DNA of 64,000 nt, taken from assembly GCA_017445585.1 (NCBI GenBank), contig JAFSTX010000042.1:1-64000 (forward strand). The letters run 5' to 3'. This document shows positions 5,588 to 29,520 of the stretch, piece by piece. How positions within the stretch are numbered: position 1 is the first letter of the stretch; each line of letters opens with the position of its first letter. The stretch comes from Lachnospiraceae bacterium (GTDB taxonomy: Bacteria > Bacillota > Clostridia > Lachnospirales > Lachnospiraceae). The notes beneath the pieces are model-generated. The model saw nothing but the letters and a program-made list of their open reading frames with translations, had not been told where the DNA came from and made no database searches. The translations under genes were made by a program, and so were the position numbers.

Positions 5588-7155
5588 TTATTCCTGGGAT
5601 GGCGTCCTTTGTTGTGCTGGATACCGCGCTTCTTCATACGGGCCTGACGGTTCTTTTCGGAAGAAGGTCTTCTCTTCTTTTCGCCGCTGTCCGCGGGCTT
5701 TCTGCCGTTCATGGCGGCATTATACTCGGCCAGGGTCATGCTGCCGGGCGTATCTGCAGCTTCATCCGCTGTATCGGCGCCGTTTTCGGCATCGCTCTTC
5801 TCCGTCTCCTGCGAGGCGCCGGTCATATTATCGCCGGTCTCATCCGTCACGGCTCCGGTCTCATCCGTCACGGCTCCGGTCTCATCTTCCGCCTCGCCGG
5901 CAGTTTCCTCTCCGGGCGCGGACTCGGGCTCGACAAACTCCGGTACAGGCTCAGGCTCGGGAATATCCCCGTAGGCAAGCGACTCCTCCGGATTTGCGGA
6001 AAGCATGATCTCCGAAGCGCGCAGAGAAACGGCCAGCGCCTCGGCCATCACGCCGGGTGCGTAAGCAGCGGAGCTCTGCTCCTGCTCTACGTCTCTGATG
6101 ATATCAAATTCATCGGCCGAAAGCTTTTTAAGGCGGTCGATGATCCTGGGCATGAAGGCCTCGTCGGTAAGCTGGGTATCCAGCATCCCGTCATCCTCCA
6201 TGTCGTTGCGTATATTGTAGCGGAAATTCAGATACTGGACCGCCGCCGCCCTGTAGAGATCGCGCAGATACGCCTCGGGCACGTCCTCCAGATTCTCCTG
6301 GATCAGCATACTGTAGCCTGCGCTCTCATATCCCTCGATAAACTGCCAGAGGGTCAGACATCTGCGCATGTTCGGATTCTTCATGATCGCGTTCGTATGC
6401 ATGATGGGCGGACGCACAAAACTCTGGCCCATGTTCCTCGCGAACTCCGAGCCGGCGTAGGTCTGCACTATATCGTATATCTTTACCACGCGCTTCCACA
6501 GATCGGTGGTCTTTGAGTAGTTCTTTTCGACGAGATCGGAATCGTCCGTAGGCTCCGCGATCTCCAGAGTAAAATGCATCTTGCCCTTGAGGTCTCCGTG
6601 TGAAAAAGACTGCTCCATGACAAGCGAAGTCTCGCGGGTATCCTGGCCCTCGTTCTTTGCCACATCATAGCGCATGGCGACAAAGGTCAGCAGGCGGTTG
6701 ATGAGCGTATTCAAAAACTTATTTTCGTAGGTCTGGAGAGTCTCTTCACGAAAGACGTTGAGCAGCTTGGAAGGAGTGACCGTGTCGCCCTCGATCTTTG
6801 AGATGAGATCAGTATGCTGCGCCAGATGCTTCACGGAGGCAGGCGAGATATTCTTGGACATCTCGATGGGAAGGACTTCTTCTCTCTCCATGATGTATTT
6901 TGACGGATTGCGGAGCGCGGCGTCCAGATAAGGCAGAGCATCCTCGATAGCGTTTACCCATGTCTCATCTATGGCGCGCAGCATATAGCGCTTTTTCAGC
7001 TCGACGCTGGCCTGCCCGCTCTGGAGCATGGCCATGACGGAGCTGAAAATATCGCTCTCCTCGATAAGTATATCCATGAGAGTTCCGTTTTCCTGATGGA
7101 AGGCACGGAGCTCTCTGGCTGTTGTATTCTGATTGGCTGTGTTGGTTTCAGGCAT
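5584..7155 (-). CDS. Partner of the McrB-like ATPase; DUF2357/McrC-context-like protein without visible nuclease
   Basis: A 523-residue, probably cytosolic protein with no signal peptide. The first about 370 residues are helical and include TYENKFLNTLINRLLTFVAMR, which resembles the conserved ENRF-type segment of the DUF2357/McrC-associated proteins that accompany McrB-like ATPases. I see no PD-(D/E)xK nuclease motif. After about residue 385 come acidic, Glu/Thr-rich low-complexity sequence, including a 21-bp DNA repeat (near 5840-5895) encoding the repeated DETGAVT, and a strongly basic C-terminus (KKRRPSSEKNRQARMKKRG). It lies 80 bp downstream of the AAA+ gene and overlaps the SipW gene by four bases. 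Its function is unknown; a structural adaptor for the AAA+ protein is the best guess. Confidence 0.6.
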   Translation of the reverse strand: MPETNTANQNTTARELRAFHQENGTLMDILIEESDIFSSVMAMLQSGQASVELKKRYMLRAIDETWVNAIEDALPYLDAALRNPSKYIMEREEVLPIEMSKNISPASVKHLAQHTDLISKIEGDTVTPSKLLNVFREETLQTYENKFLNTLINRLLTFVAMRYDVAKNEGQDTRETSLVMEQSFSHGDLKGKMHFTLEIAEPTDDSDLVEKNYSKTTDLWKRVVKIYDIVQTYAGSEFARNMGQSFVRPPIMHTNAIMKNPNMRRCLTLWQFIEGYESAGYSMLIQENLEDVPEAYLRDLYRAAAVQYLNFRYNIRNDMEDDGMLDTQLTDEAFMPRIIDRLKKLSADEFDIIRDVEQEQSSAAYAPGVMAEALAVSLRASEIMLSANPEESLAYGDIPEPEPVPEFVEPESAPGEETAGEAEDETGAVTDETGAVTDETGDNMTGASQETEKSDAENGADTADEAADTPGSMTLAEYNAAMNGRKPADSGEKKRRPSSEKNRQARMKKRGIQHNKGRHPRNK

Positions 7156-7235: not shown

Positions 7236-8870
7236 TTAGAATGACATCTTCTGCAGACGCTGCAGGTAAGCCACGCATTCCTTCATGGAATCCTTGCCAA
7301 AGAGGTTTCCGAGATAAAGGATCAGACCGCGGATCTCGTCACGGATGAGAGAAAGGTTAAGTGCCTCGAATTTGCGGAACACCTTTGTAGCGAGGATATA
7401 GTCGATGGCTTCGAGCTCAGTGCCTCCGCAGGCAACGTAGACCGGTACGAAGATCTTGAGCTGATTCATGATACGGTTACCGAAAGCCACCCTGAATTTC
7501 TCGATGACGTAGAGATCGAGATTGCTGATCTTGTCAAGTATCTCCTGGCTGACAGGATTCTTTTCGACAGCTTCCTTGTACATCTCCTCTACATGCGAGT
7601 AGCTGATATGCTTGGGAGCCGTATCGGGAGCCTCAAAAGGCATACCCTTGCTGTCCAGATTGATGACGAGCGCACGGTCGTAGACCTTGTCGGATACCGC
7701 GAAGGTGGAATCATCGTTATTTGCCGTACCGATGTACCAGACATTCTGAGGGATCTGGAGCTTGCCGTCGTCCAGGTGGGCGGGGTCGGTAGGCCAGGAT
7801 GAAGGCACGATCTCTATGCGCCACTCATTCGGGTCGGGCATCTCGAGGACTGAAAGCATCTCGGCGAAGTAATACTCCACACGCGCGATGTTCATCTCGT
7901 CGAGGATGATGATATTGATATCGTCATTGTACGAAGACTCATAGATGCGCTTGAGCACCTCTGTCTCGTTGAATTTCTTTGTGAATTCGTTAAAGAAGCC
8001 GAACAGCTCGGAGCGGTCACGCCACGACGGCTGTACGGAGGCGATGGTCGCGTCGTTCATAAAATACTTGCCCATGATATAAGGCAGCGAAGTCTTACCT
8101 GTACCGGAAATACCCTGCAGGAGGATCAGCTTGGTGGAAGCAAGTCCGGCAAACATAAGACGGATAATCTTTTTCTCATAGAACAGGCGGCCTCTGGAAC
8201 AGGCGAAATTCCTGATATCGTCGCAGAGCTGCTCGAGGTTCATGGAGTTGTCGTATTCGGGAGGCATGTAGTACGAATACTTTTCATCCACAGCCGACAG
8301 ACGGAAGAAACGCTTGGACTCCGAAGGATTCACGTCCGCGCCGCTTCCGGAGGAGGCTGCAGCTGCGACGGCTGCGCCGGCAGCCGGCGCAGCAGGGACC
8401 ATGCCGCCTACACCGGCTGTCAGTCCAACCTGACCCTCGGCTCCCGCCGCAGTCTGCTCTTCGAATATAGTGCGCAGGTCGTCATAGCTCATGCCTGTAG
8501 GCGCGATCTTAAGTGCAAGCAGACGCTCCTTTTCCGCTGTGAGCTGAATGACGTCGCGGTGAAGATCCGCAACCTCTTCGAGCAGGTCTTCATTACCTAC
8601 GATAGACTTGCGGAAACGGACATATTTACGTATCAAAAGGACTATCAAAAAGATGATGCCGCCTACGATGGCATACGTGAGCAGGATGGAAAGCGTGGCC
8701 AGTATCCATGCAAGGACGTTAAAACCGTCCTTGTAGCGATTCAGCTGCTCTATATACATCGGAATGTTAAAAAGCTGAGCAAAGCCTGTGAACAGACCTG
8801 ATATACCGTTCCACAGAGAGCTCAGTATTGTCGTAAAGAAAGCAAAAAACCAGTTCAGAAAAGCATCCAT
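7236..8870 (-). CDS. Membrane-anchored McrB-like AAA+ ATPase
   Basis: A 544-residue protein. The N-terminus is hydrophobic (a membrane-associated stretch at residues 5-35 and a clear transmembrane helix at about 52-81), followed by a coiled-coil-like segment (about 88-120) and an Ala/Gly-rich linker (145-180). The AAA+ core has Walker A GISGTGKT (253-260), Walker B IIILDEMNIA (D324, E325), sensor-1 GTANNDDST (381-389) and a likely arginine finger near R399. The LDEMNIA and GTANNDD signatures are those of the McrB/MoxR-like branch. McrB itself is a soluble GTPase of restriction systems; membrane anchoring and neighbouring SipW peptidases instead suggest a chaperone or assembly motor (inference). 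The ATG has a GGAAGGA ribosome binding site and lies only about 40 bases after a terminator. Confidence 0.85.
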   Translation of the reverse strand: MDAFLNWFFAFFTTILSSLWNGISGLFTGFAQLFNIPMYIEQLNRYKDGFNVLAWILATLSILLTYAIVGGIIFLIVLLIRKYVRFRKSIVGNEDLLEEVADLHRDVIQLTAEKERLLALKIAPTGMSYDDLRTIFEEQTAAGAEGQVGLTAGVGGMVPAAPAAGAAVAAAASSGSGADVNPSESKRFFRLSAVDEKYSYYMPPEYDNSMNLEQLCDDIRNFACSRGRLFYEKKIIRLMFAGLASTKLILLQGISGTGKTSLPYIMGKYFMNDATIASVQPSWRDRSELFGFFNEFTKKFNETEVLKRIYESSYNDDINIIILDEMNIARVEYYFAEMLSVLEMPDPNEWRIEIVPSSWPTDPAHLDDGKLQIPQNVWYIGTANNDDSTFAVSDKVYDRALVINLDSKGMPFEAPDTAPKHISYSHVEEMYKEAVEKNPVSQEILDKISNLDLYVIEKFRVAFGNRIMNQLKIFVPVYVACGGTELEAIDYILATKVFRKFEALNLSLIRDEIRGLILYLGNLFGKDSMKECVAYLQRLQKMSF

Positions 8871-8952: not shown

Positions 8953-9837
8953 CTATTCGGCCTGCACCTTTTCAGCGGCTTCCTCCGCCTCGGCCACAGT
9001 CTCCTTGACCTCGGCAGCTGCATCTTCCGCAGCCTTTTCAGCCTCCTGCACAGCAGCGGCTGCATCGTCCGCAGCTTTTTCCGCCTCCGCAGAAGCATCT
9101 TTCGCGGCTGCCTCTGCCTGTGCGGCTGCATTTGCCTGCTGATTCTTGATGTACTCCTCGATTGCGCGCTGACGTATCAGCTCCTCATCGGCCTGGGTGA
9201 TCTGCTTTTTGCCCTCGTTCTTTATAGCGAGGAACTTGCGGATGAATACGATCAGTTCAAACAGGAAGAAAAGCACCAGCGGGATAACTATCACTACCAG
9301 GAAGCCTGTAGGAGTCTGAAGGAAGGAAAGGAACTTGCCCAGCGAAGGGATCTTCGTGCCGTTCCATTTGCATACGACCGCGCCAGGAAGCACAGTGTCG
9401 GTATCCTCGATAGGATTGTTATCACCTTTTGTGACATAACCGGTGACCGCACCGGAAGCATCTTTCTCGACCTCTATGATCCTGTGGGTGTTCAGATCTC
9501 TGTATCCGTCGCCGTTGAGGTCATCGACAGCAAAGGTAATAACATCCTCCACATTAAGCTGCATGGCCTCCGTATCGTCGACCTTCTCGCCGATGATGAT
9601 GTCGCCCGCCTTAAAGGTAGGGAACATGGAATCGGTCTGCACATTCAGGATCGTTGTGGCTCCGATGGAAGGGACGTTGTAGCTGCTGGAGGTCTGGGCA
9701 AAAGCCAGGACCGTGATCAGCGCGCAAAACGCGACAAATATCCAAAGGATGACGTTACCTATGATGCCGAGAACTTTCCTCGCACCGGATTTCTGTTTTT
9801 TATCTGCGCCTTCCAGCAATTCTTTTTCTTCTGACAT
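8953..9837 (-). CDS. SipW-type (ER-type) signal peptidase I, copy 2
   Basis: A 294-residue S26B-type signal peptidase. Catalytic S70 (QTDSMFP) and H118 (LNTHRI) with TKGDNN (D139) give the Ser-His arrangement of SipW. Transmembrane helices are at about residues 21-47 and 178-198. The last about 70 residues form an Ala/Glu/Lys-rich, probably coiled-coil cytosolic tail (repeated AEKAAEDAAAEV-like segments), unusual for a signal peptidase and possibly a docking site for the AAA+ complex. It is transcribed from its own promoter (9930-9957) and closed by a terminator. The presence of two SipW paralogs in about 5 kb suggests different substrates or a heteromeric complex. Confidence 0.9.
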   Translation of the reverse strand: MSEEKELLEGADKKQKSGARKVLGIIGNVILWIFVAFCALITVLAFAQTSSSYNVPSIGATTILNVQTDSMFPTFKAGDIIIGEKVDDTEAMQLNVEDVITFAVDDLNGDGYRDLNTHRIIEVEKDASGAVTGYVTKGDNNPIEDTDTVLPGAVVCKWNGTKIPSLGKFLSFLQTPTGFLVVIVIPLVLFFLFELIVFIRKFLAIKNEGKKQITQADEELIRQRAIEEYIKNQQANAAAQAEAAAKDASAEAEKAADDAAAAVQEAEKAAEDAAAEVKETVAEAEEAAEKVQAE

Positions 9838-9929: not shown

Positions 9930-9957
9930 ATTATACATTTTTTCACTCAAATGTAAA
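9930..9957 (-). promoter_or_regulatory. Sigma-A-type promoter of the second SipW-type gene
   Basis: Minus-strand TTTACA (9952-9957), a 16-bp spacer and TATAAT (9930-9935) precede the gene by about 95 bp. The surrounding 9840-10080 is AT-rich and contains no other gene. Confidence 0.75.
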
Positions 9958-9967
9958 TATTTTTCAG

Positions 9968-9990
9968 CAAAAAAACGGCACAAAACCGTG
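9968..9990 (-). terminator. Weak terminator candidate after the DUF2442 gene
   Basis: On the minus strand a short CACGG/CCGT-type hairpin with a TTTTG loop is followed by a seven-T run. It lies downstream of the small DUF2442 gene; the stem is short, so this is tentative. Confidence 0.4.
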
Positions 9991-10082: not shown

Positions 10083-10382
10083 TCAACAAACAAAATCGTC
10101 CGTCTCTATCTCGTAGCTATGCTCAAAGATGTAATCCGGCGAGCAATCTATTTCCCCATCCTTCCATGTAGGGATTCCGTATTCGATCTTGCAGTCCCTA
10201 AATACAGTGCTTTCCTTTAACGGCTCAAATGCCTCTCCATCAAGTGATGCCGCATCAAAGACTCTTGTCTCTCCGTTCTCGAAAGTAACAAGCATGATCA
10301 TATCACGCAGTATTTTGACGGAAGCGATCTTGTGTGATCCGCCATATCCGGATCCATAAACAAAACCATCTCTGAAAAACAT
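10083..10382 (-). CDS. DUF2442-family small protein
   Basis: A 99-residue protein resembling the DUF2442 family: the pattern VTFENGETRVFDAASLDGEAFEPLKE, then PTWKDGEIDCSPDYIFEHS, is typical. Members are small cytosolic proteins of unknown function, often found beside DUF4160 proteins or toxin-antitoxin genes; no DUF4160 partner is present here. An adequate ribosome binding site (GTAGGTGACAGACT) precedes the ATG. It is oriented with the giant surface-protein gene but is separated from it by a terminator-like hairpin. The cluster around it may be coincidental. Confidence 0.75.
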   Translation of the reverse strand: MFFRDGFVYGSGYGGSHKIASVKILRDMIMLVTFENGETRVFDAASLDGEAFEPLKESTVFRDCKIEYGIPTWKDGEIDCSPDYIFEHSYEIETDDFVC

Positions 10383-10526: not shown

Positions 10527-13500
10527 TTACTGGACGGTCACTTCTCTCCTGCCGGTCACGGAGAATGCAGTGGTATTCATCGTATAATCAAAGTTGGTAT
10601 CCAGCGTCGTTACGTAGACGTCGTAGGTGCCTGCAGTGCCGCCGATGACAACGTCGTACTTGCCTGCGGCCGTGCTGTCCTCGTCACCGGTCTGGCGCAC
10701 AGCGTCAAAGACGGTGTACTCCACGGTACGATCGCCCTCGGTCACGGAAACGGTCTGCTCCGTAGCCACCAGATTCAGGCTGCCGTCACGCGTGACGGTA
10801 TGGGTAAGGCCCATGCCCTCGACGTTGTATTCCAGTATAACAGCTGCCGGCGCAGGCTCCGCGCCCGTATAGTCCGTCGGGATCAGAGAATGCCCGTCAT
10901 AAGCCGGAGCGGGGCTGGTAGTCACCGTAGTGGTAGTGCCGGAGATCGACGTCGTGGCGACGTTCTGGACGACCTCGGTAGAGGTGGCTCCGTTCTGCGT
11001 GGTCTGGGTGGTCACGGTAGTAGTCGTTATCGTTCCTCCCGCGGAATTGGCATCCAGCGAGGTAACCGTCTCGGTGATCGTTTCCGTGCCGGTAACGTTG
11101 ATCGTCGCCGGGCTGCCCGAGCTGTTCGTCACGACAAGTGTCGCATCGGCGGGGACGTTCTTTGCGGCATATCCGGTCAGCAGCGCATCCGTATTTGTCA
11201 CGGTCAGGGTCTTGTCCTGACTCATCGCAAAGGTCGTAGTACCCGCAGACGCCGCCGTCGGAAGCGACAGGAATACGGACTTGGACGGATCCAGCGAGCC
11301 CTCGGTATCAAAGAGAACAGAGTCGGCCGCATCCACGAAAGCAACGCCCTTCGGATAGTCAAGCGCCACGGTGGAGACGCGCGTCGTCTCGGTAGTGGTC
11401 GTCCTGATGCTGAAGTCCGCGTTTGCCGCGATATCCAGATAGATCAGATATGCTCCGTCACCGTCAGCGGACCCGAGCGCGAACTCTCCCGCATCCAGCG
11501 GTACTTCGAAGTAGTAGACGGAGTTCATGGTGAGGTTGCGCCTGTTTCTGATAACAGCCGTATCAAAGATCTGGGCGTAGCCCGAAGGCAGCGAGCTGCC
11601 GGCCAGCGTGCCGTCCGAATTATAGTAATTTGTATCGCCCACGTAGCTGTATACGTAGTTGTGGGTGCTGTCTCCGTCGCCGTAGATCCCCGCAAGCTCT
11701 TTGATCGCGGTTATATTCTGATCGGAGTCGCGCAGTACGTGGTGCAGCGAGAAGAAGCTCTGGGTACCGTTCGATCCGCTGAAATACGTACCTGCCATAA
11801 AGGTCACACGCCCCTTTGTCGCGACGTTGAAATCTATGGAGTCCTGAGGCATGGCATAATCAGTGTAGGTCGTTCCGTTGATCACGGCCTTTGGAACCGT
11901 GACGGTATCCGCCGCACTGATCTGGGCCTGCATAAAGTGCATGCCGTAGACGTAAGTCTCGTCGCGCAGCAAATCGTTGACCTCAGCAGAAACCTTTTCG
12001 TACTGGGTAGTAAGCTGGTTGCCTATACCGTACTGGGTGATGGTCTGCTGGGTGCCGTTTACTATGGTATATACGCGCCCGTTATTCAGTACGCCGTTCG
12101 CCAGGGACGCGCGGATACTCGCCCAGTTGCCCGCGGCGTTTTTATTGTAGCGCGATACGCGGATATCACCGGGAGGCGCCGAATCGGTGCTGCCGCCGCT
12201 GATAACGTATCCGGTATTCGTCGAAGCAGGCGCCGTATGGCCCTGATTCCACGCCAGCGGATAGTAGGTAGGATAAGTATTGATATCGACCGATTCAGTA
12301 GTGTCGTCCGTCGTGGTATATTCGAGCGGGTCAGAAGCTTTGTTGGAGGCAACTGCTGTCTCTACAGACGTGTCAAAGAGGGAGTCGCCCTCGATGGCGG
12401 CTGAGGCGGAGATATCGAGGTACATGAGGTAGGCGCCGTTTTTGTTAGCAACCGAACCAAGTGCGTATTCGCCGGCGTTTACAGGGATTTCGTAATAATA
12501 CAGCCTTTCATCAACAAAATCAGAACCCGGATTTGTCAGCCAGGCCATATCAAAAATCATACTGCCTCTCGAAGCGTTACTCGAATAAGTCCCGTCCGAA
12601 TACTTATATATATAATCATCACTGCTAATAAGGGGAGCATATATCTCAGCTATCTGTTTGATAGCATATGCAGTATTTGACGTCCTTATTATGTGAGAAA
12701 GCGAGAAAAATGCATCATTGTTTTCAAAATAGGTTCCGGCAAAGAAATTAATATATCCCTTTGTCTTAAGATTAAAATCTATGCAATCACTGGGAACGTG
12801 ATAATTTGTTAAACTGCTGTCTCCGTTAATCGTAGCGTTCGGTATTATTACATCTGATGCCCCAACAGTTGCGTCCATAAAATGAAGCCCGTATATTGCA
12901 CCTTTTCCGGATGACAAGACCGTATCAAGGCTATCACGAGCACTCGCGTACTTCTGGAGTCCATAACTTTCCGCCGCAGAATTGCTGTTAAAACTCTGAA
13001 GACCATTTGACCTTGCCGTACGGGTATATACGGTCATACTATCTTTGTCATAGCTGGAGGTATAATACTTTAAACTAGCCGTTCCCCAGCTTCTTAATGC
13101 TACTGCAGCTGCCTGGTTTGTCAATATCCAGGAAGTTGTGGAGCTATCATACCCTAGATACAGATTCCCAGAATGAAGAGTGTAACCTGTTCCAGACAGC
13201 GCTGTCGATGAAACCCAGACAGTAGACGGAGTGGTTGAAACTACAATTTCTCCATCCACAATATTGGCATAATACCTGACATAATTCAGCACAGTGGTCA
13301 GGTAGCCGCTTGTCTCCGTACCATCTGACAGAAACCAATACGAAGCAACTCTGTCAGTATTTGTTGTGCTCTGTGAGGAATACCTGAGTACTTTGATCCC
13401 TGTCAGATCAGGAGTTAGCCCCAAACGATACGATGTTGCACCGTTTCTAGTAATCAAATACCCTGTCACATTTTCTGTCGTAATCGTTCCATTGTATGAG

Positions 13501-15953
13501 GCTGATAAATTGTCCAATTCGTAAGCGGAAACTCTTATATCTCCCGACTGACGCGGATTATTAGTAAACTGCTGATACTCTGAACCGCTTACAATATAAC
13601 CTGTATTGACCGAAAGTGGTTCAAATGTATCATCTACTAAAAGCGGAAAAGCTGTAGGAAGAGATCCTGAATAGCTACCCGACTCCCCAAACAGATATAT
13701 ATATTTATAGTTGTTGGGCAGATTACTATCAGAATACAAACTAAACGTAAAACTACCCTTGTTACCACCATTAATTGCTCTAAGATAGGTAGTAGTTCCG
13801 CTAACAAAGGATTTATCTGAGTCACGTATCGTCAAAAGTCTGCTATGAAGTGCAAGCATATCTATACTTCCGCCCCAGTCATTGCCCGGACCGCCTACAT
13901 AATAAGTAGTCGTTGACCAGCCCTCGGCTGCATCATATACCAGTGCCCTGCCTTCGTTCTCTCCCACCATCGTATATATCTTCGCCTTTTCGCTGCCGGA
14001 GGCGTCCACGTTGTTCCACACGGTGGGCGTAGCGGGATTAGCCTCGACGGTAAGAGTGCCGACGGAGTCACACATCAGATAGTAGGTTGTACCGTTATAT
14101 TCTGTGGTCAGGGTATAGTCGGTTGACGCGCTCTTTACCCAGGGAAGGGCCGAAGCCTTTACGGTATCAGAGATCGCGGCGGGGCTGCCTGATATAGTCA
14201 GGTAATGCGTGCCGGTGCTCTCCGTGATGAGATTCGTTTCTTTTCTGATCAGCTGCCAGAAGCCGTCCTTGTAGCACAGATACCACTGTCCGCTGTAGAT
14301 CTCGTCCGTGCCGATGGTCCAGGCGGTAGTGCCGGCAGGTGCAGCAGCGTCTTCAGCCAGTGCGCCGCTCGATCCGAGCGTGTTGTCGGCTGATTTAACC
14401 ATATAATATTTGCTGACGGTATCGCCGCTCTGGATGATGGTGTAGATGTTGCCGCCGTCTATTACCCATTTGGTCGCGTTTGCCTCCAGCGTCGCGTTGC
14501 CGAAGGTCGTCCCGTTAAAGGTCAGGTAATTTGTCCCGCTGTAGATATAAACTGCGGGCTTTTCATATTCGTAGATATGATGGACTTCCTGCGTCCTGGT
14601 AGCGGTGGTCTCTTCGCCGTAGAGGTACACAAAGTCCGTGGTGTCGTCTCTCTGTACGATGGAGTATGAAGCTATAACATCGCCGTTGTCATCGACCTCG
14701 GTGACCTTTATGGGGTACGTCAGGCTGCCGGTGCCGCCCTGTACGGTGACGGAGAGAGGCGCGGTGCCATTGCCTGTCACGACGTCTGTTATCGTTCCAT
14801 CAGCATGATGCGTGCGGGTGATCGCGCTCGCGTAAGTAGCGCTTGTATTTGTAGTCGTGGTATAGACACTGCGAAGGTCATTGTACATCGAGCGCATATC
14901 CACGCTGGCGCCCCAGTTGTTGCCCTGCTCGGGCGTGGCGCCGCCACCGCCGCCGCTGGAGATCGCCTGCGGATCGTAGACCTGTACGGTCGTTACTTCA
15001 TTTACCTGTTTGAAAGGCTCGGTGCAGTAGCCGACCGCGCCGTAATCGGTAAGATTTGTCGTGCCTACGCCGGCCACGGAGGCAGTTGCTCCGCTCACGA
15101 GGGTGCCGCCCACGACACGCACATTTTCCATGGTGCCGTTTACGTATCCTGCGGCTATGCCGGCCAGAGACTCGGTAGTCTGGGTCTTTATTTCGGCGTT
15201 CTGAAGGACCACGTCGCGCACTTCGATAGCGGCACTGCTGTAGGTGACGGAGTTTCCGCCTATGGTGACGGTGCCGTCGCTGGTTCCGTCAGCCTCTCCC
15301 ACTATGCCGAAAAAGCCCACGATCTTTGCGGGATCGGTGAGCGAGCCGCCACTCAGCGCCTGCTCGGGAACGTTGACCGCGGTAGCAGTACCGCCGGAAA
15401 GAGAGGTGTTTTGAAGGTCATTGACATTATTTGAGATCTTAAGACCCTTGATCGTATATCCGTTGCCGTTGAAATTGCCGAGGAAAGGATTCTCCTCGGT
15501 GCCGACGGGAGGCAGCGTCAGACCGGCGTATTCTCCCGTAGTCAGATCGATATCGCTCGTCAGGACAAAGTAGGTCTGCTTCAGAGCGCCGTTTTCGGTC
15601 TGATTGAAATATCCGAGATACTGCAGCCAGGCGAAGTTATAGAGCTGGATGGCATTGTCGATCTGATAAGGGCCATCGCTGTTGCCGCCGTCGTATGCAT
15701 AGGAGGGGTACTTGGTACCGGGCTCCTTGTAATCGGTTTTTGTCGTGCCGTCGTCAGGCGCGCTTCCGTCGCCGCCGTTGAAGTAGAAGGCGTGTGCCGC
15801 GCCGGATACGGTTACGAGATCCACCACGTCCTCGACCTTTGCAAACCACGCCAGTGAGCCGGTGCCGATAAGCACCGCCACGATCAGGAAGAGAAGCGAG
15901 ATGATGAATCTCGGCCTCGGAAGTATTAATTTTCTGCGTTCTTCTCTGCTCAT
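10527..15953 (-). CDS. Giant (1808-residue) secreted/surface protein with SipW-type N-terminus and duplicated modules
   Basis: The N-terminus is basic, then hydrophobic (residues about 15-37), and runs into SLAWFAKVEDVVDLVTVSGAA, like the AWFS/WFAN junction of the neighbouring TasA-like proteins, so SipW-type processing is likely. Residues about 130-175 contain a GLUG-like beta-strand motif (NFNGNGYTIKGLKISNN). Two paralogous modules follow: one has CIDFNLKTKGYINFFAGTYF then EYALGSVANKNGAYLMYLDI, the other SIDFNVATKGRVTFMAGTYF then EFALGSADGDGAYLIYLDI. The body is Thr/Ser/Gly-rich, as in bacterial adhesins. No LPxTG motif, LysM repeat or C-terminal helix is seen, so anchoring is unexplained. 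It lies 127 bp downstream of the 275-residue protein, under the same c-di-GMP riboswitch. The segment 12480-13920 is clearly AT-richer than the rest of the gene. Confidence 0.85.
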   Translation of the reverse strand: MSREERRKLILPRPRFIISLLFLIVAVLIGTGSLAWFAKVEDVVDLVTVSGAAHAFYFNGGDGSAPDDGTTKTDYKEPGTKYPSYAYDGGNSDGPYQIDNAIQLYNFAWLQYLGYFNQTENGALKQTYFVLTSDIDLTTGEYAGLTLPPVGTEENPFLGNFNGNGYTIKGLKISNNVNDLQNTSLSGGTATAVNVPEQALSGGSLTDPAKIVGFFGIVGEADGTSDGTVTIGGNSVTYSSAAIEVRDVVLQNAEIKTQTTESLAGIAAGYVNGTMENVRVVGGTLVSGATASVAGVGTTNLTDYGAVGYCTEPFKQVNEVTTVQVYDPQAISSGGGGGATPEQGNNWGASVDMRSMYNDLRSVYTTTTNTSATYASAITRTHHADGTITDVVTGNGTAPLSVTVQGGTGSLTYPIKVTEVDDNGDVIASYSIVQRDDTTDFVYLYGEETTATRTQEVHHIYEYEKPAVYIYSGTNYLTFNGTTFGNATLEANATKWVIDGGNIYTIIQSGDTVSKYYMVKSADNTLGSSGALAEDAAAPAGTTAWTIGTDEIYSGQWYLCYKDGFWQLIRKETNLITESTGTHYLTISGSPAAISDTVKASALPWVKSASTDYTLTTEYNGTTYYLMCDSVGTLTVEANPATPTVWNNVDASGSEKAKIYTMVGENEGRALVYDAAEGWSTTTYYVGGPGNDWGGSIDMLALHSRLLTIRDSDKSFVSGTTTYLRAINGGNKGSFTFSLYSDSNLPNNYKYIYLFGESGSYSGSLPTAFPLLVDDTFEPLSVNTGYIVSGSEYQQFTNNPRQSGDIRVSAYELDNLSASYNGTITTENVTGYLITRNGATSYRLGLTPDLTGIKVLRYSSQSTTNTDRVASYWFLSDGTETSGYLTTVLNYVRYYANIVDGEIVVSTTPSTVWVSSTALSGTGYTLHSGNLYLGYDSSTTSWILTNQAAAVALRSWGTASLKYYTSSYDKDSMTVYTRTARSNGLQSFNSNSAAESYGLQKYASARDSLDTVLSSGKGAIYGLHFMDATVGASDVIIPNATINGDSSLTNYHVPSDCIDFNLKTKGYINFFAGTYFENNDAFFSLSHIIRTSNTAYAIKQIAEIYAPLISSDDYIYKYSDGTYSSNASRGSMIFDMAWLTNPGSDFVDERLYYYEIPVNAGEYALGSVANKNGAYLMYLDISASAAIEGDSLFDTSVETAVASNKASDPLEYTTTDDTTESVDINTYPTYYPLAWNQGHTAPASTNTGYVISGGSTDSAPPGDIRVSRYNKNAAGNWASIRASLANGVLNNGRVYTIVNGTQQTITQYGIGNQLTTQYEKVSAEVNDLLRDETYVYGMHFMQAQISAADTVTVPKAVINGTTYTDYAMPQDSIDFNVATKGRVTFMAGTYFSGSNGTQSFFSLHHVLRDSDQNITAIKELAGIYGDGDSTHNYVYSYVGDTNYYNSDGTLAGSSLPSGYAQIFDTAVIRNRRNLTMNSVYYFEVPLDAGEFALGSADGDGAYLIYLDIAANADFSIRTTTTETTRVSTVALDYPKGVAFVDAADSVLFDTEGSLDPSKSVFLSLPTAASAGTTTFAMSQDKTLTVTNTDALLTGYAAKNVPADATLVVTNSSGSPATINVTGTETITETVTSLDANSAGGTITTTTVTTQTTQNGATSTEVVQNVATTSISGTTTTVTTSPAPAYDGHSLIPTDYTGAEPAPAAVILEYNVEGMGLTHTVTRDGSLNLVATEQTVSVTEGDRTVEYTVFDAVRQTGDEDSTAAGKYDVVIGGTAGTYDVYVTTLDTNFDYTMNTTAFSVTGRREVTVQ

Positions 15954-16080: not shown

Positions 16081-16908
16081 TCAGTCTTCTATCCTCAGGT
16101 ACTCGATGTCATTTTCAAGTCTGAAGATGTTACTTTCGGTGGATCCGACGGAAACCACGTGCTGCTTCAGGTAATCCGACATGAGAGCGTCGTCGTAGGT
16201 AAGGTAGAAATACACATACATTGTGCTGGCGCCGGTGTGCATAAAGGCAAAATTCAGGTCATCGATCTTTGAGTACCCGCCCTGCGAGAGCGTCGTAAAT
16301 GTGTTGCCCGCAACGCCCTTACCGGCTCCGCTCTTGAAATAAGTCTCTACGTCATTGTAGACGTCCTCGGGATTGACCGTCCCGGAATAGGTCGCCTTCA
16401 TATATGCCCCCGAGAAGTCCGCCTCGGTGCAGGGCTGGAGCCTGAGCACGCTGGTGATATAGCTGGGAAGCGCCTCACCCGAGGAGGGAAGCGCCGTGCC
16501 GTCCTTGCTGAGCAGCCTCTTCATATCGAGGTGGAATACCTGTCCCGCCGAGTATACGCCGCCGGTCAGCTTTACACGCAGGACCATGGGTGTATACGTA
16601 TTTCTGTCGACGAAGATGGTGTCATGTTCGTTCATCTGGAGCCCGTCCGTACCGAAGAAGGCAAACGAAAGCCTGTCCAGATCGTATTTGACAGCGTCCA
16701 TGAAAATGCTCGCGCGTCTGTCGGCGTCGGTGGTGACGTTCATTCCGGAGCCGCTTACATCACGGTTATTTGCAAACCAGCCAAGGGACTTGTTGAAGAG
16801 CAGCACAAAGGCCAGTATCACGGCCACTGCAAGCACGATAAGCACAGCAAGCCTCGGTGCCAGCTGTGCAATGCCTCGTATTTTGTTCTCTGCTGTAGTC
16901 TTAGCCAT
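16081..16908 (-). CDS. WFxN-type (camelysin/TasA-like) membrane or secreted protein, first gene of the riboswitch operon
   Basis: A 275-residue protein with a basic start, a long hydrophobic helix at residues about 17-40 and the sequence LGWFANNRDVSGSGMNVTTDA directly after it. That hydrophobic core followed by WFxN..V..N resembles SipW-dependent signal peptides of the TasA/camelysin kind. The rest is probably an extracellular beta-sandwich. I see no enzyme motif. It begins the operon that also encodes the giant surface protein, 127 bp downstream. Upstream lies a consensus promoter, a c-di-GMP-I riboswitch and a terminator hairpin, so expression should depend on c-di-GMP. The ribosome binding site is weak (TAAGG very close to the ATG). 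A minor subunit or anchor for the giant protein is plausible (inference). Confidence 0.75.
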   Translation of the reverse strand: MAKTTAENKIRGIAQLAPRLAVLIVLAVAVILAFVLLFNKSLGWFANNRDVSGSGMNVTTDADRRASIFMDAVKYDLDRLSFAFFGTDGLQMNEHDTIFVDRNTYTPMVLRVKLTGGVYSAGQVFHLDMKRLLSKDGTALPSSGEALPSYITSVLRLQPCTEADFSGAYMKATYSGTVNPEDVYNDVETYFKSGAGKGVAGNTFTTLSQGGYSKIDDLNFAFMHTGASTMYVYFYLTYDDALMSDYLKQHVVSVGSTESNIFRLENDIEYLRIED

Positions 16909-16983: not shown

Positions 16984-17022
16984 CGAAAACACAAAAGACA
17001 GCCAGTAATGCAACTGGCTGCC
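16984..17022 (-). terminator. Riboswitch-controlled terminator upstream of the 275-residue protein
   Basis: Minus-strand CAGCCAG (in 17014-17020) pairs with CTGGCTG (16999-17005) across an 8-base loop, followed by TCTTTTGTGTTTT. The 5' arm is part of the conserved 3' strand of the c-di-GMP-I aptamer, so aptamer folding and termination exclude each other. Confidence 0.8.
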
Positions 17023-17093
17023 TTAAATATCAGGGCCCTATAGCTTTGCGTCACCGCCTTTCGACGGCTTTGCCTTTTAATACTTCTTAAACT
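17008..17093 (-). promoter_or_regulatory. Cyclic-di-GMP-I (GEMM-I) riboswitch, copy 2
   Basis: The transcript reads GGCAAAGCCGTCGAAAGGCGG, then TGACGCAAAGCTATAGGGCCC and later GGCAGCCAGTTGCAT. This is the GEMM-I pattern: a GCAAA..C start, a P2 hairpin capped by GAAA, the GACGCAAAGC linker, a P3 arm with the tetraloop receptor and a GGCAGCCAG 3' strand. Its 3' strand overlaps the terminator arm, so ligand binding is predicted to allow read-through (ON switch) into the 275-residue and giant surface-protein genes. The ON direction is inferred; the class assignment rests on recognised conserved bases. Confidence 0.9.
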
Positions 17094-17099
17094 GAGTGT

Positions 17100-17128
17100 A
17101 TTATAAAGAAAAGCAGCCTGACTGTCAA
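17100..17128 (-). promoter_or_regulatory. Consensus sigma-A promoter of the giant-protein operon
   Basis: Minus-strand TTGACA (17123-17128), a 17-bp spacer and TATAAT (17100-17105) form a perfect consensus promoter. The predicted start is near 17093, directly at the 5' edge of the riboswitch. The strength of the promoter implies that regulation is left to the riboswitch. Confidence 0.92.
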
Positions 17129-19306: not shown

Positions 19307-19328
19307 CCCCCCGGGATAACCCGGGGGC
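19302..19328 (-). terminator. Strong terminator after the TasA-like gene
   Basis: On the minus strand an 8-bp stem CCCCCGGG/CCCGGGGG with a TTAT loop is followed by GTTTTTATTG. It ends the degenerate-EAL/TasA-like operon 29 bp beyond the stop codon. Confidence 0.92.
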
Positions 19329-19356: not shown

Positions 19357-20265
19357 TCAGGCCTTGGTGTCAAGTGAGAACTTAATGTCAACCTTGATAT
19401 CATCAAGCTGAGCAGCAAGAGCGTTATCGGTCATGCAGTTGGCATCTTCGCCCTCATACCAGATGTAGACATCAACCTTAGCTCCGTTAGCGTCGGAAGC
19501 AGGAAGCTTCGCAAGATCGGTAGGAGTAACAGTAGTTCCTGCGATCGCATTAGTAGCGGTAGAGGAAGCATTTACATAATAGGTAGCGGTGTAACCGGTA
19601 ACAGGTGCATAGATGTAGAACACGGAGTTCATCTTGATACCAACTCTGAGTGACTTGTTGAGGTTGGTAGAACCGGTACTAGCAGCAGGGGTAGCAGTAG
19701 CTGTTACTTCTTTAATGCTTACATACTGGTCGCCAGAGGCCTCGTTCTTAAGAGTGATCTCCTGGCCGGAGGACTTAAGATAGTACTCATAGTGGACATA
19801 GTAGCCGGCAGGCGCGTCAGCAGCGGTACCCATGGTCTCTCTCTTGGCTTCCGAGCCGGCGGTAGCGCTCTTGCTCATAGCGGTGATAGCAGTCAGACCA
19901 GAAAGTGTCTCATAGTTGCCGATGATGTCGCCGGACTTGGATCCGGGCGTTGCAGCAGCTGCGCTGTTGGACTTCGTGCTGGCAGCATGATACCATGTTG
20001 ATCCGTCAGCAGTGGATGCCGGATAGAGAAGAGAGGCATCGGTAGAAGCAGTCTGCTTGGCAGTAGCTTCGCTGTCCCAGGTGGTGTCGTTAGCTGCCTG
20101 AACCTCGTTGATCAGAAGACCCTGCTCAGCAACGGCTCTGACTTCCATGCTGGTAGCAGAGACTTCTTTGTTCATCGAGAACCATGCGAAAGTTGCGGAG
20201 CTCATGGCTGTAGCAGAAACAAGAAGCATAGCCAGAGCGGGGATGAGTTTCTTGAACTTCTTCAT
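19357..20265 (-). CDS. TasA/camelysin-like secreted protein with SipW-dependent signal peptide
   Basis: A 302-residue protein. The N-terminus MKKFKKLIPALAMLLVSATA, then MSSATFAWFSMNKEVSATSMEV, is a textbook SipW-dependent signal peptide: basic start, hydrophobic core, then AWFS and a beta-strand region. The mature part is Ala/Thr/Ser-rich. Near the C-terminus VYIWYEGEDANCMTDN then DIKVDIKFSLDTKA parallels WLEGPDPDCVDKIIGGQ then FKIDM of the neighbouring 260-residue protein, so the two are paralogs. TasA-family proteins form extracellular matrix fibres; the same role is inferred here. A strong ribosome binding site (AAAGGAG) and a strong terminator suggest high expression. It is the third gene behind the first c-di-GMP riboswitch. 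Confidence 0.85.
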   Translation of the reverse strand: MKKFKKLIPALAMLLVSATAMSSATFAWFSMNKEVSATSMEVRAVAEQGLLINEVQAANDTTWDSEATAKQTASTDASLLYPASTADGSTWYHAASTKSNSAAAATPGSKSGDIIGNYETLSGLTAITAMSKSATAGSEAKRETMGTAADAPAGYYVHYEYYLKSSGQEITLKNEASGDQYVSIKEVTATATPAASTGSTNLNKSLRVGIKMNSVFYIYAPVTGYTATYYVNASSTATNAIAGTTVTPTDLAKLPASDANGAKVDVYIWYEGEDANCMTDNALAAQLDDIKVDIKFSLDTKA

Positions 20266-20332: not shown

Positions 20333-21115
20333 TCAAACAATACTAAACTTTCTGACCGGCAGGACCGCTTTCGACTCGGCTGCGTTCATGCCGTCGTTGC
20401 CGTCTTCGGAACCTATGACCGTCATCGCCATGTCGATCTTGAACTGTCCTCCGATGATCTTGTCGACGCAGTCGGGGTCGGGACCCTCGAGCCAGATGAC
20501 CACTGTGTACTTCGTCGTATCTCCCGGAGCGAAGTTCTCGATGGTCTTCCGTACGATCGTCGTCTCGGACTGGAAGGCCGTGGTGCCGGGTTCCGGTCCT
20601 TCTATACCGTCCGTCCTCGGGTAGGCATAGTCAACGTACTCGCCGTTGGTGTATATCCTCACTCTGACCGCCTTTTCTATCTCGTAGGTCATGTTCGCGA
20701 TATAGCACTCGTAGTTGTATTTGATTGTCTTGGTGCCCTGGTTCCTGCAGTAGAAGGTGTAGGCTACGTAATTATCTCCGTTATGCTCTCCGTCTACGTT
20801 GTCCACCCACGCGGGGATCGTGGAACCGTCTATATTCGTTACTTCCTTTGCTATCTCCGCGTTCAGCCTCGAGGTGTAGCTGTTAAAATTCTGTGACGCT
20901 GAAAGCGTGAGCGCATATTCCAGATTATCAAACTTGTTTACCGATACCGTGAAGGCTCCGAACTTCATATAGAGCACTGTGATAACATATCCGATGATCA
21001 GTATCAGTATCGCTATTCCTATGATTATCGGAATCAGCTTCATCCAGATGCGGTAGCGTTTGACCTCCTCCGCAGTTCGTCGGATGCCGACCCCTACGAC
21101 TCTTGATCTAGCCAT
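20333..21115 (-). CDS. Camelysin/TasA-like membrane-anchored protein
   Basis: A 260-residue protein with a cytosolic basic start, one transmembrane helix at about residues 27-50 and an extracellular domain. Its C-terminal WLEGPDPDCVDKIIGGQFK, followed by IDMAMTV, matches the C-terminal pattern of the TasA-like protein downstream, which marks it as a paralog. It lacks the AWFS motif after the helix, so it may stay anchored and serve as a base or minor subunit, as TapA does for TasA (analogy only). Its ATG overlaps the upstream stop by one base (TAATG), so it is coupled to the degenerate EAL-like gene. A small hairpin lies between it and the next gene and could raise the level of the downstream product. 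Confidence 0.75.
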   Translation of the reverse strand: MARSRVVGVGIRRTAEEVKRYRIWMKLIPIIIGIAILILIIGYVITVLYMKFGAFTVSVNKFDNLEYALTLSASQNFNSYTSRLNAEIAKEVTNIDGSTIPAWVDNVDGEHNGDNYVAYTFYCRNQGTKTIKYNYECYIANMTYEIEKAVRVRIYTNGEYVDYAYPRTDGIEGPEPGTTAFQSETTIVRKTIENFAPGDTTKYTVVIWLEGPDPDCVDKIIGGQFKIDMAMTVIGSEDGNDGMNAAESKAVLPVRKFSIV

Positions 21116-22068
21116 TATTCCTCCTCGGCATGCTGGGCTGCGGCTTCTTCAAGTCTCATCCTGAGACTGCCGTGCTTTACATTTCCCTGATAGCCGGAAG
21201 AAGGGATATAAGCCCTGCAATCGCATTTCGTAAGTGCGTTTATCTGATTGTCATTGTACACACCGTCAGCAATCACATCCGCCGAAAAGCTCTTGAGGAA
21301 ATTCACCAGAGCCGCGACGTTCGCGCCCTTAGACCGGCTGTCACTCATGGAGGTGATCAACGGATCCAGAAGGAAGAAGTCCACCGGGATCTCATAGAGC
21401 GCCGCGGGTGAGATATCTGCAGCTCCGATGCCGGTGACCATGGTGCGGACTTTCAGGAGCTTCATATCGAGGATCGATTTTCTGATCTTCGCTCTGGACT
21501 CCGGATCCGTCGACCTGATGAGTCCTGCAGGAAATTCGAGGCAGATGGTCTCTGGTGCGAGGCCCTGCTCCTGAGCAAGACCTTTAACGATGTCGTAGAG
21601 GTCATCTCTCAGGCACATCTCCCAGGGGCATCTCGCTGTCACATACTGGATCTTCCTGCCTGCCAGCTCCATCTGGCGTGCGGCCCGCAGCGCGTGAGTG
21701 ATGTTCCACTTTGCAAGGCCGATGCCCTCCTCTGTGGGATCGGTCTCGGTGCTGTAGATCTCCGGACCGGTCACTCCGGTGCTGACGCTGTTCAAATATG
21801 TAAAGGTGCGGTATGCAATGGGTTCCGGCGGATAAGTGCTGTTGATCTGAGCAAATCTCATCTCTATGGGATCGACGCCGGCCTCGATAGTTGCGTTAAC
21901 CAGTCTGGCACGATCCAACTCAGGCCCTTCGAGTACCGGCAGATCCTCCTGCTCGGTCCCGGCATCCTGACCGGAAATCTCCTGCGTCACTTCTGTCTGC
22001 TTTGCATTTTCCTCTGTGTCTTCGGTAGTCAGTACTTCGCGTCCTTCAATTTCTGTATTCTCGGACAT
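21115..22068 (-). CDS. Degenerate EAL-like domain protein, probably catalytically inactive
   Basis: A 317-residue cytosolic protein; I use the ATG at 22068 (MSENTE), which has an AAAGGAG site, rather than the GTG at 22095. Residues 1-50 are acidic and disordered. Residues about 65-300 follow the EAL fold: ICLEFPAGLI stands where active enzymes have LEITES, TGIGAADIS where they have DDFGTGYSS, IPVDFFLLDPLI for LPVDxLKID, and VIADGVYNDNQINAL for IAEGVETxxQ. The EAL glutamate, the DD pair and the metal-binding glutamates are missing, so phosphodiesterase activity is unlikely. It could be a c-di-GMP or protein-binding receptor for the export system. It is the first gene behind its own c-di-GMP riboswitch. 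Confidence 0.8.
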   Translation of the reverse strand: MSENTEIEGREVLTTEDTEENAKQTEVTQEISGQDAGTEQEDLPVLEGPELDRARLVNATIEAGVDPIEMRFAQINSTYPPEPIAYRTFTYLNSVSTGVTGPEIYSTETDPTEEGIGLAKWNITHALRAARQMELAGRKIQYVTARCPWEMCLRDDLYDIVKGLAQEQGLAPETICLEFPAGLIRSTDPESRAKIRKSILDMKLLKVRTMVTGIGAADISPAALYEIPVDFFLLDPLITSMSDSRSKGANVAALVNFLKSFSADVIADGVYNDNQINALTKCDCRAYIPSSGYQGNVKHGSLRMRLEEAAAQHAEEE

Positions 22069-22097: not shown

Positions 22098-22140
22098 AAA
22101 AAAATGCAACCTACGCAGTCATAGTGACTTGCAGATTGCA
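22098..22140 (-). terminator. Riboswitch-controlled terminator before the degenerate EAL-like gene
   Basis: On the minus strand TGCAA..TGC.AGTCA pairs with TGACT.GC..TTGCA around a CTA loop, followed by a seven-T run. The 5' arm starts within the last bases of the c-di-GMP-I aptamer, so the two structures compete. It ends about 30 bases before the start codon. Confidence 0.8.
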
Positions 22141-22207
22141 ACTGGCTGCCCTTTCGGGTCCTATAGCTTTGCGTCGCCGCCTTTCGACGGTTTTGCTCTC
22201 GTCTGAT
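22136..22207 (-). promoter_or_regulatory. Cyclic-di-GMP-I (GEMM-I) riboswitch, copy 1
   Basis: The transcript contains GCAAAACCGTCGAAAGGCGG, then CGACGCAAAGCTATAGGACCC, a GAAA loop and GGCAGCCAGTTGCAA. These are the conserved elements of the GEMM-I aptamer (GAAA-capped P2, GACGCAAAGC joining segment, P3 and the conserved 3' strand). The core is nearly identical to the second copy at 17008-17093, which shows that both operons respond to the same signal. Overlap with the terminator predicts ON regulation by c-di-GMP (inference). Confidence 0.92.
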
Positions 22208-22213
22208 ACTGCA

Positions 22214-22241
22214 ATTATACCAACTCAAAGCAGTTTGTCAA
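22214..22241 (-). promoter_or_regulatory. Consensus sigma-A promoter of the degenerate-EAL/TasA-like operon
   Basis: Minus-strand TTGACA (22236-22241), a 16-bp spacer and TATAAT (22214-22219). The predicted transcript start is near 22207, at the 5' edge of the riboswitch. AT-rich sequence lies upstream of the -35 element. Confidence 0.92.
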
Positions 22242-26932: not shown

Positions 26933-27142
26933 TCAATCCTGACCGACGTATTCGTAATCCTTTGCCTCGACCGCAGCCTTTACCGCCGCCTCGTCAAAGT
27001 CCCCGCAAAGCGTCATGACCGCAGTGCCATTCTCATGGCTTGTGACAGCGGATTCCACGAAGGGAAGCGCCTCAAGGGCCTTCTTGACCGTGGCTTCGCA
27101 GTGCTCGCACATCATACCTTTGATCTTAACTGTCTTTTCCAT
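26933..27142 (-). CDS. copZ: Copper chaperone CopZ (HMA domain), also in frame with copA
   Basis: A 69-residue heavy-metal-associated protein: MEKTVKIKGMMCEHCEATVK with the metal-binding MxCxxC motif. It delivers Cu(I) in the cytosol to the CopA ATPase. The ATG at 27142 has a strong TAAGGAGA site, which itself is translated in the upstream frame as NKEIK. No stop codon separates it from the C-terminal part of copA, so a CopA-CopZ fusion can also be made in principle. The ATGs and the ribosome binding site argue that free CopZ is a real product. Confidence 0.9.
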   Translation of the reverse strand: MEKTVKIKGMMCEHCEATVKKALEALPFVESAVTSHENGTAVMTLCGDFDEAAVKAAVEAKDYEYVGQD

Positions 27143-29520
27143 TTTTATCTCCTTATTTGTACTGACGCTTGTCTCCGCGGCGATGCGTCTCCTGCGTCCG
27201 CGCGGCGCATGGTCGCGGGAAGCGTCCTTCATTTTAAACAGGTTCAGGCGCAGAGCGTTCATGCATACCGTAAAGCTCGACAGGCTCATTGCCGCTGCGG
27301 CGATCATGGGATTCATCTTCCACGCGAGGATCCCGGCGGCGATCGGTATGCAGATCACGTTATAGAAAAACGCCCAGAACAGATTCTCGTGAATGTTTAA
27401 AAGTGTCCTGCGGCTCAGGCGTATCGCGGCGGCCACATCGGTTATCGAGCTGTTCATCAGCACGATGTCGGCAGAGTCGATCGCCACATCGGTCCCTGCG
27501 CCTATAGCGATACCGATATCGGCGCACGTCAGAGCGGGCGCATCGTTGATGCCGTCGCCCACCATGGCGACTTTGCCGGATTTCTGAAGGCCGCGTATCA
27601 CGTCCGCCTTTCCGTCCGGCAGAACGCCCGCGATCACCCGGTCCACTCCGGCTGCTACGCCGATGGCCTTTGCCGTGCGCTCATTGTCCCCCGTAAGCAT
27701 GACCACGTCAAGGCCAAGCGCCCTCAGCTGCTTTATTCCCTCCGCGGAGTCAGGCTTGATACGATCCGCCACGGCTATGATGCCAAGGAGCTTCCCGTCG
27801 CGTGCAAAAAAGAGGGGTGTGCGGCCTGCCTCTGCCAGCGCCGCCGCCTTTCCCTGAGATCTGCCGGCACTGCTGCAACCGTCTCTATATAGGCGCCGCT
27901 CCCTCCGGCCAGACTCCTTCCGTCCAGGCTTGCGCGCAGTCCATTGCCCGGGAGTATTTCAAAATCCGTGACCTGCGCGGGACACATGCCGCGCTCACTC
28001 GCAGCCGCAACGATTGCGCCCGCCAGGGGATGCTCGCTTTTTGATTCGAGGGCGTAGGCCGTTGCCAAAAGCTCCTCGCCAGAGAGCCCTTCGGAAGGGA
28101 TAATATCCGTGACTTCTGGTCTGCCCGAGGTGATGGTGCCGGTCTTATCGAGAGCTATGATCTCCGTCTTGCCGGCAATCTCAAGCGCCTCGCTCGTCTT
28201 AAAGAGCACGCCGTTTTTCGCCCCGAGTCCGTTTCCGACCATGATCGCCACAGGTGTGGCAAGTCCCAGCGCGCACGGGCAGCTGATGACAAGGACAGAT
28301 ATTCCCCTGGCCAGCGCAAAGCTCACGCTCTCACCGGCGATAAGCCATCCGGCAACGACCAGGACTGCTATCCCGATGACCGCAGGCACGAAGATACCCG
28401 AGACCTTGTCTGCGATCCTGGCGATGGGCGCTTTGGTCGCGGCAGCGTCTGAAACCATATGTATGATCTGCGCCAGAGTGGTATCCTCACCTACCCTGAG
28501 CGCTCTGCAGCGCAGAAATCCCGATGTGTTGATCGTAGCCGCGCTGACCCTGTCGCCGGCGGCTTTGTCGACCGGTATCGATTCGCCGGTGAGCGCCGAC
28601 TCATCGACTGCGCTCGCTCCCTCGATGACTTCTCCGTCCACAGGGATATTTTCGCCGGGACGCACCGCAAAGACGTCGCCCACTCTGACCTGATCTATGG
28701 GTACGATGACTTCTTCTCCGTCACGTACGAGCGTCGCGGTCTTCGGCGCCAGCTTCATAAGGCTCTTCAGGGCATTCGTCGTTCGGCCCTTGCTGAGCGA
28801 TTCGAGGAGCTTGCCCACCGTGATGAGCGCCGGTATCATCGCCGCAGATTCAAAGTAGAGCTGATCGTGATAGAGCTCCATCAGATCCGCATTCGACGCG
28901 CCGGCGGTGATCATCCCGCACATCTCGAAAAAGACGTAAGTGCTCCAGGCAAAAGAGACTGAAGCTCCGAGCGCCACAAGGGTATCCATATTTGGCGAGC
29001 CGTGAAGGAGCGAGCTGAATCCGCTCGTAAAGAATTTGCCGTTTATGATCATGACCGCCGCGGCCAGGATCATCTGTGCGAGCGTCAGGGCGAGGTGGTT
29101 ATGAACAAAGAATTCAGGCAGCGGCCAGCCGAGCATGTTGTGGCCCATGGTGATATACATGAGCACAAGCAGGAATGCTACGGAAAAAATCAGCCTGCGC
29201 CGGAGCTTCGGGCTCTCCCGGTCCCTGAGCGCATCCTCTTCCGCCGCAAAAGCGGACGATCCGCCGCCTGTGCCAGCATTCCCCTTTATTCCGGCTGAGT
29301 CCGCACCGCCTGCGCGTCCTGCCGTCTTTCTTTTCGCTCCGTATCCTGCCGCTTCCACGGCCTCGATTATAGCAGCCGGCGCCGCACTTCCCTCTACGCC
29401 CATGGAATTTGTCAGCAGACTGACGGACACCGAATCCACACCCGGCACCTTGGCTACCGCCTTTTCTACGCGCGCCTGACATGCGGCGCAGCTCATTCCC
29501 GTTACTATATACTGTTCCAT
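26933..29520 (-). pseudogene. copA: Copper-translocating P-type ATPase CopA, split by a one-base frameshift
   Basis: The N-terminal part (27775-29520, 581 codons) has the HMA domain with GMSCAACQ (C11, C14), the TGES actuator motif, the [10 protein letters not shown] translocation motif and DKTGT with the phosphorylated Asp. The C-terminal part (from about 27849 down to 26933) continues with VADRIKPDSAEGIKQL, MLTGDN and GDGINDAP and ends with helices, then an in-frame CopZ domain. The two parts are in different frames: after PADLRE the correct continuation ([15 protein letters not shown], then [14 protein letters not shown]) is one base out of register at GGGAAAGG (27849-27851), where one A appears to be missing. 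This may be a real mutation or an assembly error in a homopolymer. If real, CopA is truncated before its ATP-hinge region and inactive. Confidence 0.85.

Follow-up and report, generated by a model that had tools for sequence, protein, structure and literature searches.

A predicted c-di-GMP-responsive riboswitch ahead of a giant-protein gene, and its conserved gene cluster in Clostridia

Signaling by c-di-GMP in gut and rumen Clostridia has, to our knowledge, been little studied, and we know of few surface systems described from these bacteria. A contig of a Lachnospiraceae bacterium (JAFSTX010000042.1) raises the question of whether a strong promoter ahead of a giant-protein gene is held back until c-di-GMP is present, as a preliminary description had proposed, and which genes such a switch would serve. 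To answer it, we analyzed positions 1 to 64,000 of the contig, referred to here as the window. The leader in question, RS1, is very probably a class I c-di-GMP riboswitch that turns transcription on, as is a second leader, RS2, with a phosphodiesterase of the same cluster as probable feedback.

Promoter 1 (17100-17128 (-)) matches the TTGACA-17-TATAAT consensus at 12/12 positions, the perfect match that had been claimed. The window contains two 12/12 promoters, where 0.012 are expected under a first-order Markov model of its dinucleotide content, and class I aptamers lie directly behind both. The RS1 aptamer (17005-17083 (-)) begins 17 nt after the end of the -10 box. It scores 62.1 bits with the RF01051 covariance model (cut-off, 35), so the minus-strand search that had been named as a check bears out the GEMM-I assignment. 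Its P2 stem carries a GAAA tetraloop, and 6/8 predicted P2 pairs show compensatory changes across 34 aligned aptamers. The 20 nt at the aptamer 3′ end are reused as the 5′ arm of a terminator (16986-17024 (-)) that reads AAGGCAGCCAGU-UGCAUU-ACUGGCUGUCUU, then UUGUGUUUU, and consists of a 12-bp stem (17024-16995) and a U tract; the hairpin alone has a predicted folding energy of -19.3 kcal/mol. The preliminary description had thus placed the element correctly (16984-17128) and had correctly reported that the 3′ strand of the aptamer overlaps a terminator.

The top Rfam label for RS1 is c-di-GMP-I-GGC (RF03167, 61.9 bits; cut-off, 59), cmscan reporting one match per clan only, and on this basis RS1 could be a GGC variant that senses another ligand. 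The two models score nearly equally, and RF01051 has the much lower cut-off. Positions 20 and 47 are assigned in RS1 by Vc2 numbering. The GGC consensus is GACGCGAAG, with G at position 47, while RS1, like ordinary class I aptamers, reads GACGCAAAG, with A; A47 is also present in all 34 aligned aptamers. The label is misleading because the G47 that defines the variant is A in RS1. It was dropped, and we consider a GGC variant highly improbable. Judged by its pocket bases (G20 and A47, read from the alignment), RS1 is an ordinary class I aptamer, and its sequence marks it as a real member of the known switch class. Position 20 (G11 in Cd1) steers ligand choice (PMC9262584). RS1 might instead be a decayed remnant, leaving the promoter to drive the genes constitutively, a reading that no result favors and that is scarcely credible: its key bases and stems are preserved, as are the terminator and the promoter, and the arrangement recurs in other species.

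In Clostridioides difficile, the best-studied relative, class I riboswitches are OFF switches (PMC11477304), and the direction of RS1 must therefore be argued from its layout. In the OFF switch Cd1, the terminator forms alongside the aptamer and both face competition from a separate antiterminator, whereas pilM, a proven ON switch, makes its terminator out of a strand of the aptamer itself (PMC9262584). Both RS1 and RS2 show the pilM-type layout. The 5′ arm of the RS1 terminator is the P3 strand of the aptamer itself, so aptamer and terminator exclude each other. For the whole RS1 leader, the predicted folding energy is -36.6 kcal/mol if the terminator is included and -20.7 kcal/mol when the terminator 3′ arm is barred; these predictions, like those for RS2, omit ligand and tertiary contacts. 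An OFF switch in which c-di-GMP binding favors termination, as in Cd1, has the C. difficile precedent in its favor but is improbable for a terminator that takes its arm from P3. We infer an ON switch because terminator and aptamer share a strand, as in pilM, and because the layout recurs in relatives. The earlier proposal of a strong promoter under terminator control is supported and is probably right in direction; from the sequence, c-di-GMP is the predicted ligand of RS1.

In an ON switch of this kind, transcription would start just behind Promoter 1. With ligand absent, the P3 3′ strand would pair onward into the 12-bp terminator and transcription would stop. With c-di-GMP bound, that strand would be held in the aptamer, the terminator would be blocked, and the genes for a 275-aa and an 1,808-aa protein would be transcribed. 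RS2 would act in the same way on the genes for a degenerate EAL protein (pEAL), a membrane protein (TM260), and a TasA-like protein. A membrane phosphodiesterase of the cluster (EALmem) would probably bring c-di-GMP down again, giving negative feedback. Terminators leak, and the proposed restriction of the giant protein to attached cells draws on general c-di-GMP biology.

The predicted RS1 transcript contains the genes for the 275-aa membrane-anchored or secreted protein TM275 (16081-16908 (-)) and the 1,808-aa giant protein (10527-15953 (-)), then a 99-aa open reading frame (ORF) that is DUF2442-like by eye only (10083-10382 (-)), and ends at a predicted terminator (9975-9989 (-)). The giant-protein gene is on the same predicted transcript as the switch, as had been described, but is its second gene, the 275-aa gene being first. 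No credible match in Pfam or NCBIfam was found for either TM275 or the giant protein. Homologues of the giant protein occur in genome G004 and at other loci, and TM275 homologues are paired with a giant protein at L141, L149, L157, L183, and L199; TM275 as the sole query against 98 genomes retrieved itself only. A fold model of TM275 was discarded as too poor (mean pLDDT, 50). At the N terminus of both proteins lies a transmembrane segment, and behind it a WF motif (GWFA or AWFA, the latter in the giant protein). These features, together with two adjoining genes for SipW-type peptidases, suggest SipW-dependent export, and the giant protein is a candidate surface protein.

RS2, the surrounding conserved cluster, and the C. 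difficile OFF precedent were missing from the preliminary description. Promoter 2 (22214-22241 (-); TTGACA-16-TATAAT, 12/12) is followed by the RS2 aptamer (22134-22207 (-); RF01051, 49.1 bits), a class I aptamer whose position 20 is A. A terminator (22098-22140 (-)) overlaps the aptamer 3′ end, with a predicted hairpin energy of -17.5 kcal/mol. Behind it lie pEAL (21115-22068 (-); PF00563, E = 2.8e-13), which starts at an ATG at 22068 behind AAAGGAG; TM260 (20333-21115 (-)), which recurs in relatives as the second gene of the cluster; and TasL302 (19357-20265 (-)), a TasA-like candidate fiber subunit with an AWF motif. The transcript ends at a strong terminator with 8 GC pairs and a U tract (19308-19327 (-)). 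The EAL, DDFG, and other catalytic motifs are missing throughout the pEAL family, in which 15 sequences were aligned. TasL302 has no sequence match in the PDB. Its low-confidence model (mean pLDDT, 58) resembles the TasA fiber 8aur weakly (Z, 4.5; 137 residues; rmsd, 4.3), and FimA pilins rank above TasA (Z, 5.9 versus 4.5), both matches being weak. On contig C58 of the same genome, a third class I aptamer (L050, 2218-2134 (-)) with an ON-type terminator stands before the gene for a 641-aa secreted-type protein, which is cut by the contig end.

Downstream of the RS1 transcript, the machinery genes have a promoter of their own (9930-9957 (-); TTTACA-16-TATAAT, 11/12), behind which Rfam finds no riboswitch. 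With a predicted terminator at 9975-9989 and a new promoter at 9930-9957, RS1 would govern the 275-aa/giant pair, and the machinery would be separately driven. The genes that follow encode SipW1 (8953-9837 (-)), a membrane-anchored McrB-like AAA ATPase that serves as a conserved marker (7236-8870 (-)), its DUF2357 partner (5584-7155 (-); PF09823, 32.1 bits; cut-off, 23.3), SipW2 (4769-5587 (-)), and EALmem (2451-4772 (-)). SipW1 and SipW2 score 79.4 and 87.4 bits, respectively, with TIGR02228 (cut-off, 51.85), a curated model of archaeal/SipW-type signal peptidases, and fall under the cut-off of 190 of the Bacillus-specific SipW model NF046067. The AAA/DUF2357 pair (8870-5584 (-)), whose ATPase has a membrane segment at its N terminus, recalls McrBC-type restriction systems; here it lies inside a putative surface-protein export cluster found in hundreds of Clostridia genomes. 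EALmem, a predicted membrane c-di-GMP phosphodiesterase (PF00563, E = 4.4e-57), combines a degenerate GGDEF domain with an EAL domain whose catalytic motifs are intact (EALVRW, NVS, EFTES, DDFGSG, IKLD, QEGVE, and VQGF). Across the genome, the GGDEF and GHxxGD motifs occur in four GGDEF proteins, and the motifs are intact in two EAL proteins. The pEAL protein may be a sensor or scaffold, and EALmem may act as a brake. At the end of the cluster (448-2345 (-)), an ECF sigma factor gene is followed by one for a membrane protein of 455 aa; the two are probably a sigma/anti-sigma pair and are conserved in G004. Elsewhere in the window, a copper-type P-ATPase gene is split into ORFs of 581 and 279 aa (26933-29520 (-)); its G004 counterpart (L052, 1291-3906) is a single 871-aa ORF.

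With the AAA protein as a probe, at least 531 relatives were found in public genomes. Among the best 80 of these at least 531, which were examined, one gene order recurs: pEAL, TM260, (TasA-like), SipW1, AAA, DUF2357, SipW2, and EALmem or another protein. The AAA relatives found in plasmid records were all distant. Aptamers were sought in the relatives with a model built from 34 aptamers, including those of the window. Thirteen of these other Clostridia loci carry 18 strong class I aptamers, all of them (18/18) on the operon strand and above the cut-off of Rfam's own model. Equal amounts of DNA would be expected to hold about 0.5, at about 0.4 aptamers per Mb in relatives, a comparison between samples that differ in taxa and search settings. 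Most of the 18 have near-consensus promoters, and at most of them a script found terminators overlapping the aptamer 3′ end. The script found no such terminator at L135, L142, L146, L148, L149_1, L149_2, and L150; as the bulged terminator of RS2 likewise escaped it, some of these seven may be false negatives. The switch mechanism may vary among relatives. Placement varies too: L149 has three aptamers, one each ahead of pEAL, SipW1, and the 275-aa/giant pair, and L157 has one ahead of the whole cluster, giant protein included. At L137 (5416-5613) and L140 (6536-6721), tandem pairs of class I aptamers stand at the cluster head, each with its own overlapping terminator.

A switch is present in 12/15 operons with EALmem, counting those with enough upstream sequence, versus 0/26 without it (Fisher p = 6e-8, a value that overstates independence because the sample consists of related loci selected for their closeness). 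At the wider relatives L104 to L117 and L054, and at Ruminococcus and Eubacterium ruminantium loci, no known c-di-GMP riboswitch was found at Rfam cut-offs, so the switch is not universal in the cluster. L154, L160, L175, and other Ruminococcus loci have neither EALmem nor a riboswitch and often carry a different gene, Z16078, after DUF2357; in several Ruminococcus-type clusters, the TasA-like gene lies upstream on the opposite strand. L055, L110, L114, L116, L117, and L118 begin with an HD-GYP-type protein (HD_5, E about 1e-26) instead of pEAL. With pEAL or HD-GYP first and EALmem last, proteins of c-di-GMP type go with the cluster also at loci in which no riboswitch was found. In the window, both switches serve one conserved cluster that comprises pEAL, a membrane protein, a TasA-like protein, two SipW-type peptidases, the AAA/DUF2357 pair, and a phosphodiesterase of EAL type.

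The A at position 20 raises a question about the ligand of RS2. A20 also occurs in its G004 orthologue and in L149_1, L149_3, L150, and L157, and changing A20 to G in a Geobacter cGAMP switch shifts its preference to c-di-GMP (PMC6456294). RS2, and perhaps the whole cluster, could on these grounds answer to 3′,3′-cGAMP rather than c-di-GMP. Position 20, however, is a selectivity factor and not a hard filter (PMC9262584), and 5/5 GGDEF domains above cut-off have Asp where cGAMP-making Hypr enzymes have Ser. Among the synthase families searched in this genome, which is 95.5% complete, no recognized cGAMP synthase was found, with neither a Hypr signature nor a match to a SMODS nucleotidyltransferase. 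RS2 as a simple cGAMP switch is weakened by the lack of a recognized synthase, and we regard a cGAMP response as rather unlikely. A different c-di-GMP threshold seems to us a likelier meaning of A20 in RS2 than a cGAMP signal.

In the window, the A20 switch precedes pEAL and the G20 switch precedes the giant-protein unit; at L149, the order is A20, G20, A20. One further reading, which we hold to be less likely than not, is that the cluster encodes a surface-filament system of Clostridia, as yet undescribed, that two aptamer types, G20 and A20, gate within one cell. Differing c-di-GMP thresholds, or different cyclic dinucleotides, would then stage how machinery and giant protein are assembled; pEAL would be a control subunit linked to c-di-GMP, and EALmem would end the signal.

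The main interest of the locus is this conserved cluster with two aptamer types. It joins a riboswitch, a dead EAL protein (HD-GYP in relatives), a phosphodiesterase that looks active, a set of two dedicated signal peptidases, and giant candidate surface proteins, a combination that would tie one signal to one appendage. The natural mix of G20 and A20 in one cluster makes the role of position 20, ligand identity versus threshold, testable outside Geobacter. A literature search that covered few subscription journals found no description of the cluster. The switch class is known; neither the cluster nor its control by mixed aptamers seems to have been described.

Among known systems, sipW-tasA of Bacillus and sipW-bsaABCRSD of Clostridium perfringens likewise have a SipW-type peptidase adjoining secreted fiber-type proteins (PMC7395162). 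The bsa operon is reported to be under the control of the BsaRS two-component system and of temperature and, as described, has no riboswitch, pEAL, AAA/DUF2357 pair, or phosphodiesterase (PMC7395162). RS1 is like the c-di-GMP-I (GEMM-I) class, RF01051, in sequence, fold, and key bases, with nothing essential different, while RS2 departs from it by A20. The pilM switch of Geobacter metallireducens is a cGAMP-sensing GEMM-Ib riboswitch that turns on transcription of a surface-appendage operon (PMC9262584). Its terminator, like those here, comes from the aptamer's own 3′ strand, and it shares A at position 20 with RS2; RS1 differs in having G20, and the host differs in being a Clostridia bacterium without a recognized cGAMP synthase. 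In C. difficile, c-di-GMP riboswitches also control surface proteins, but it is the class II switches that activate adhesins and type IV pili there, and class I switches turn genes off (PMC11477304). Here, class I switches are predicted to turn surface genes on, and the proteins are unrelated to those of C. difficile.
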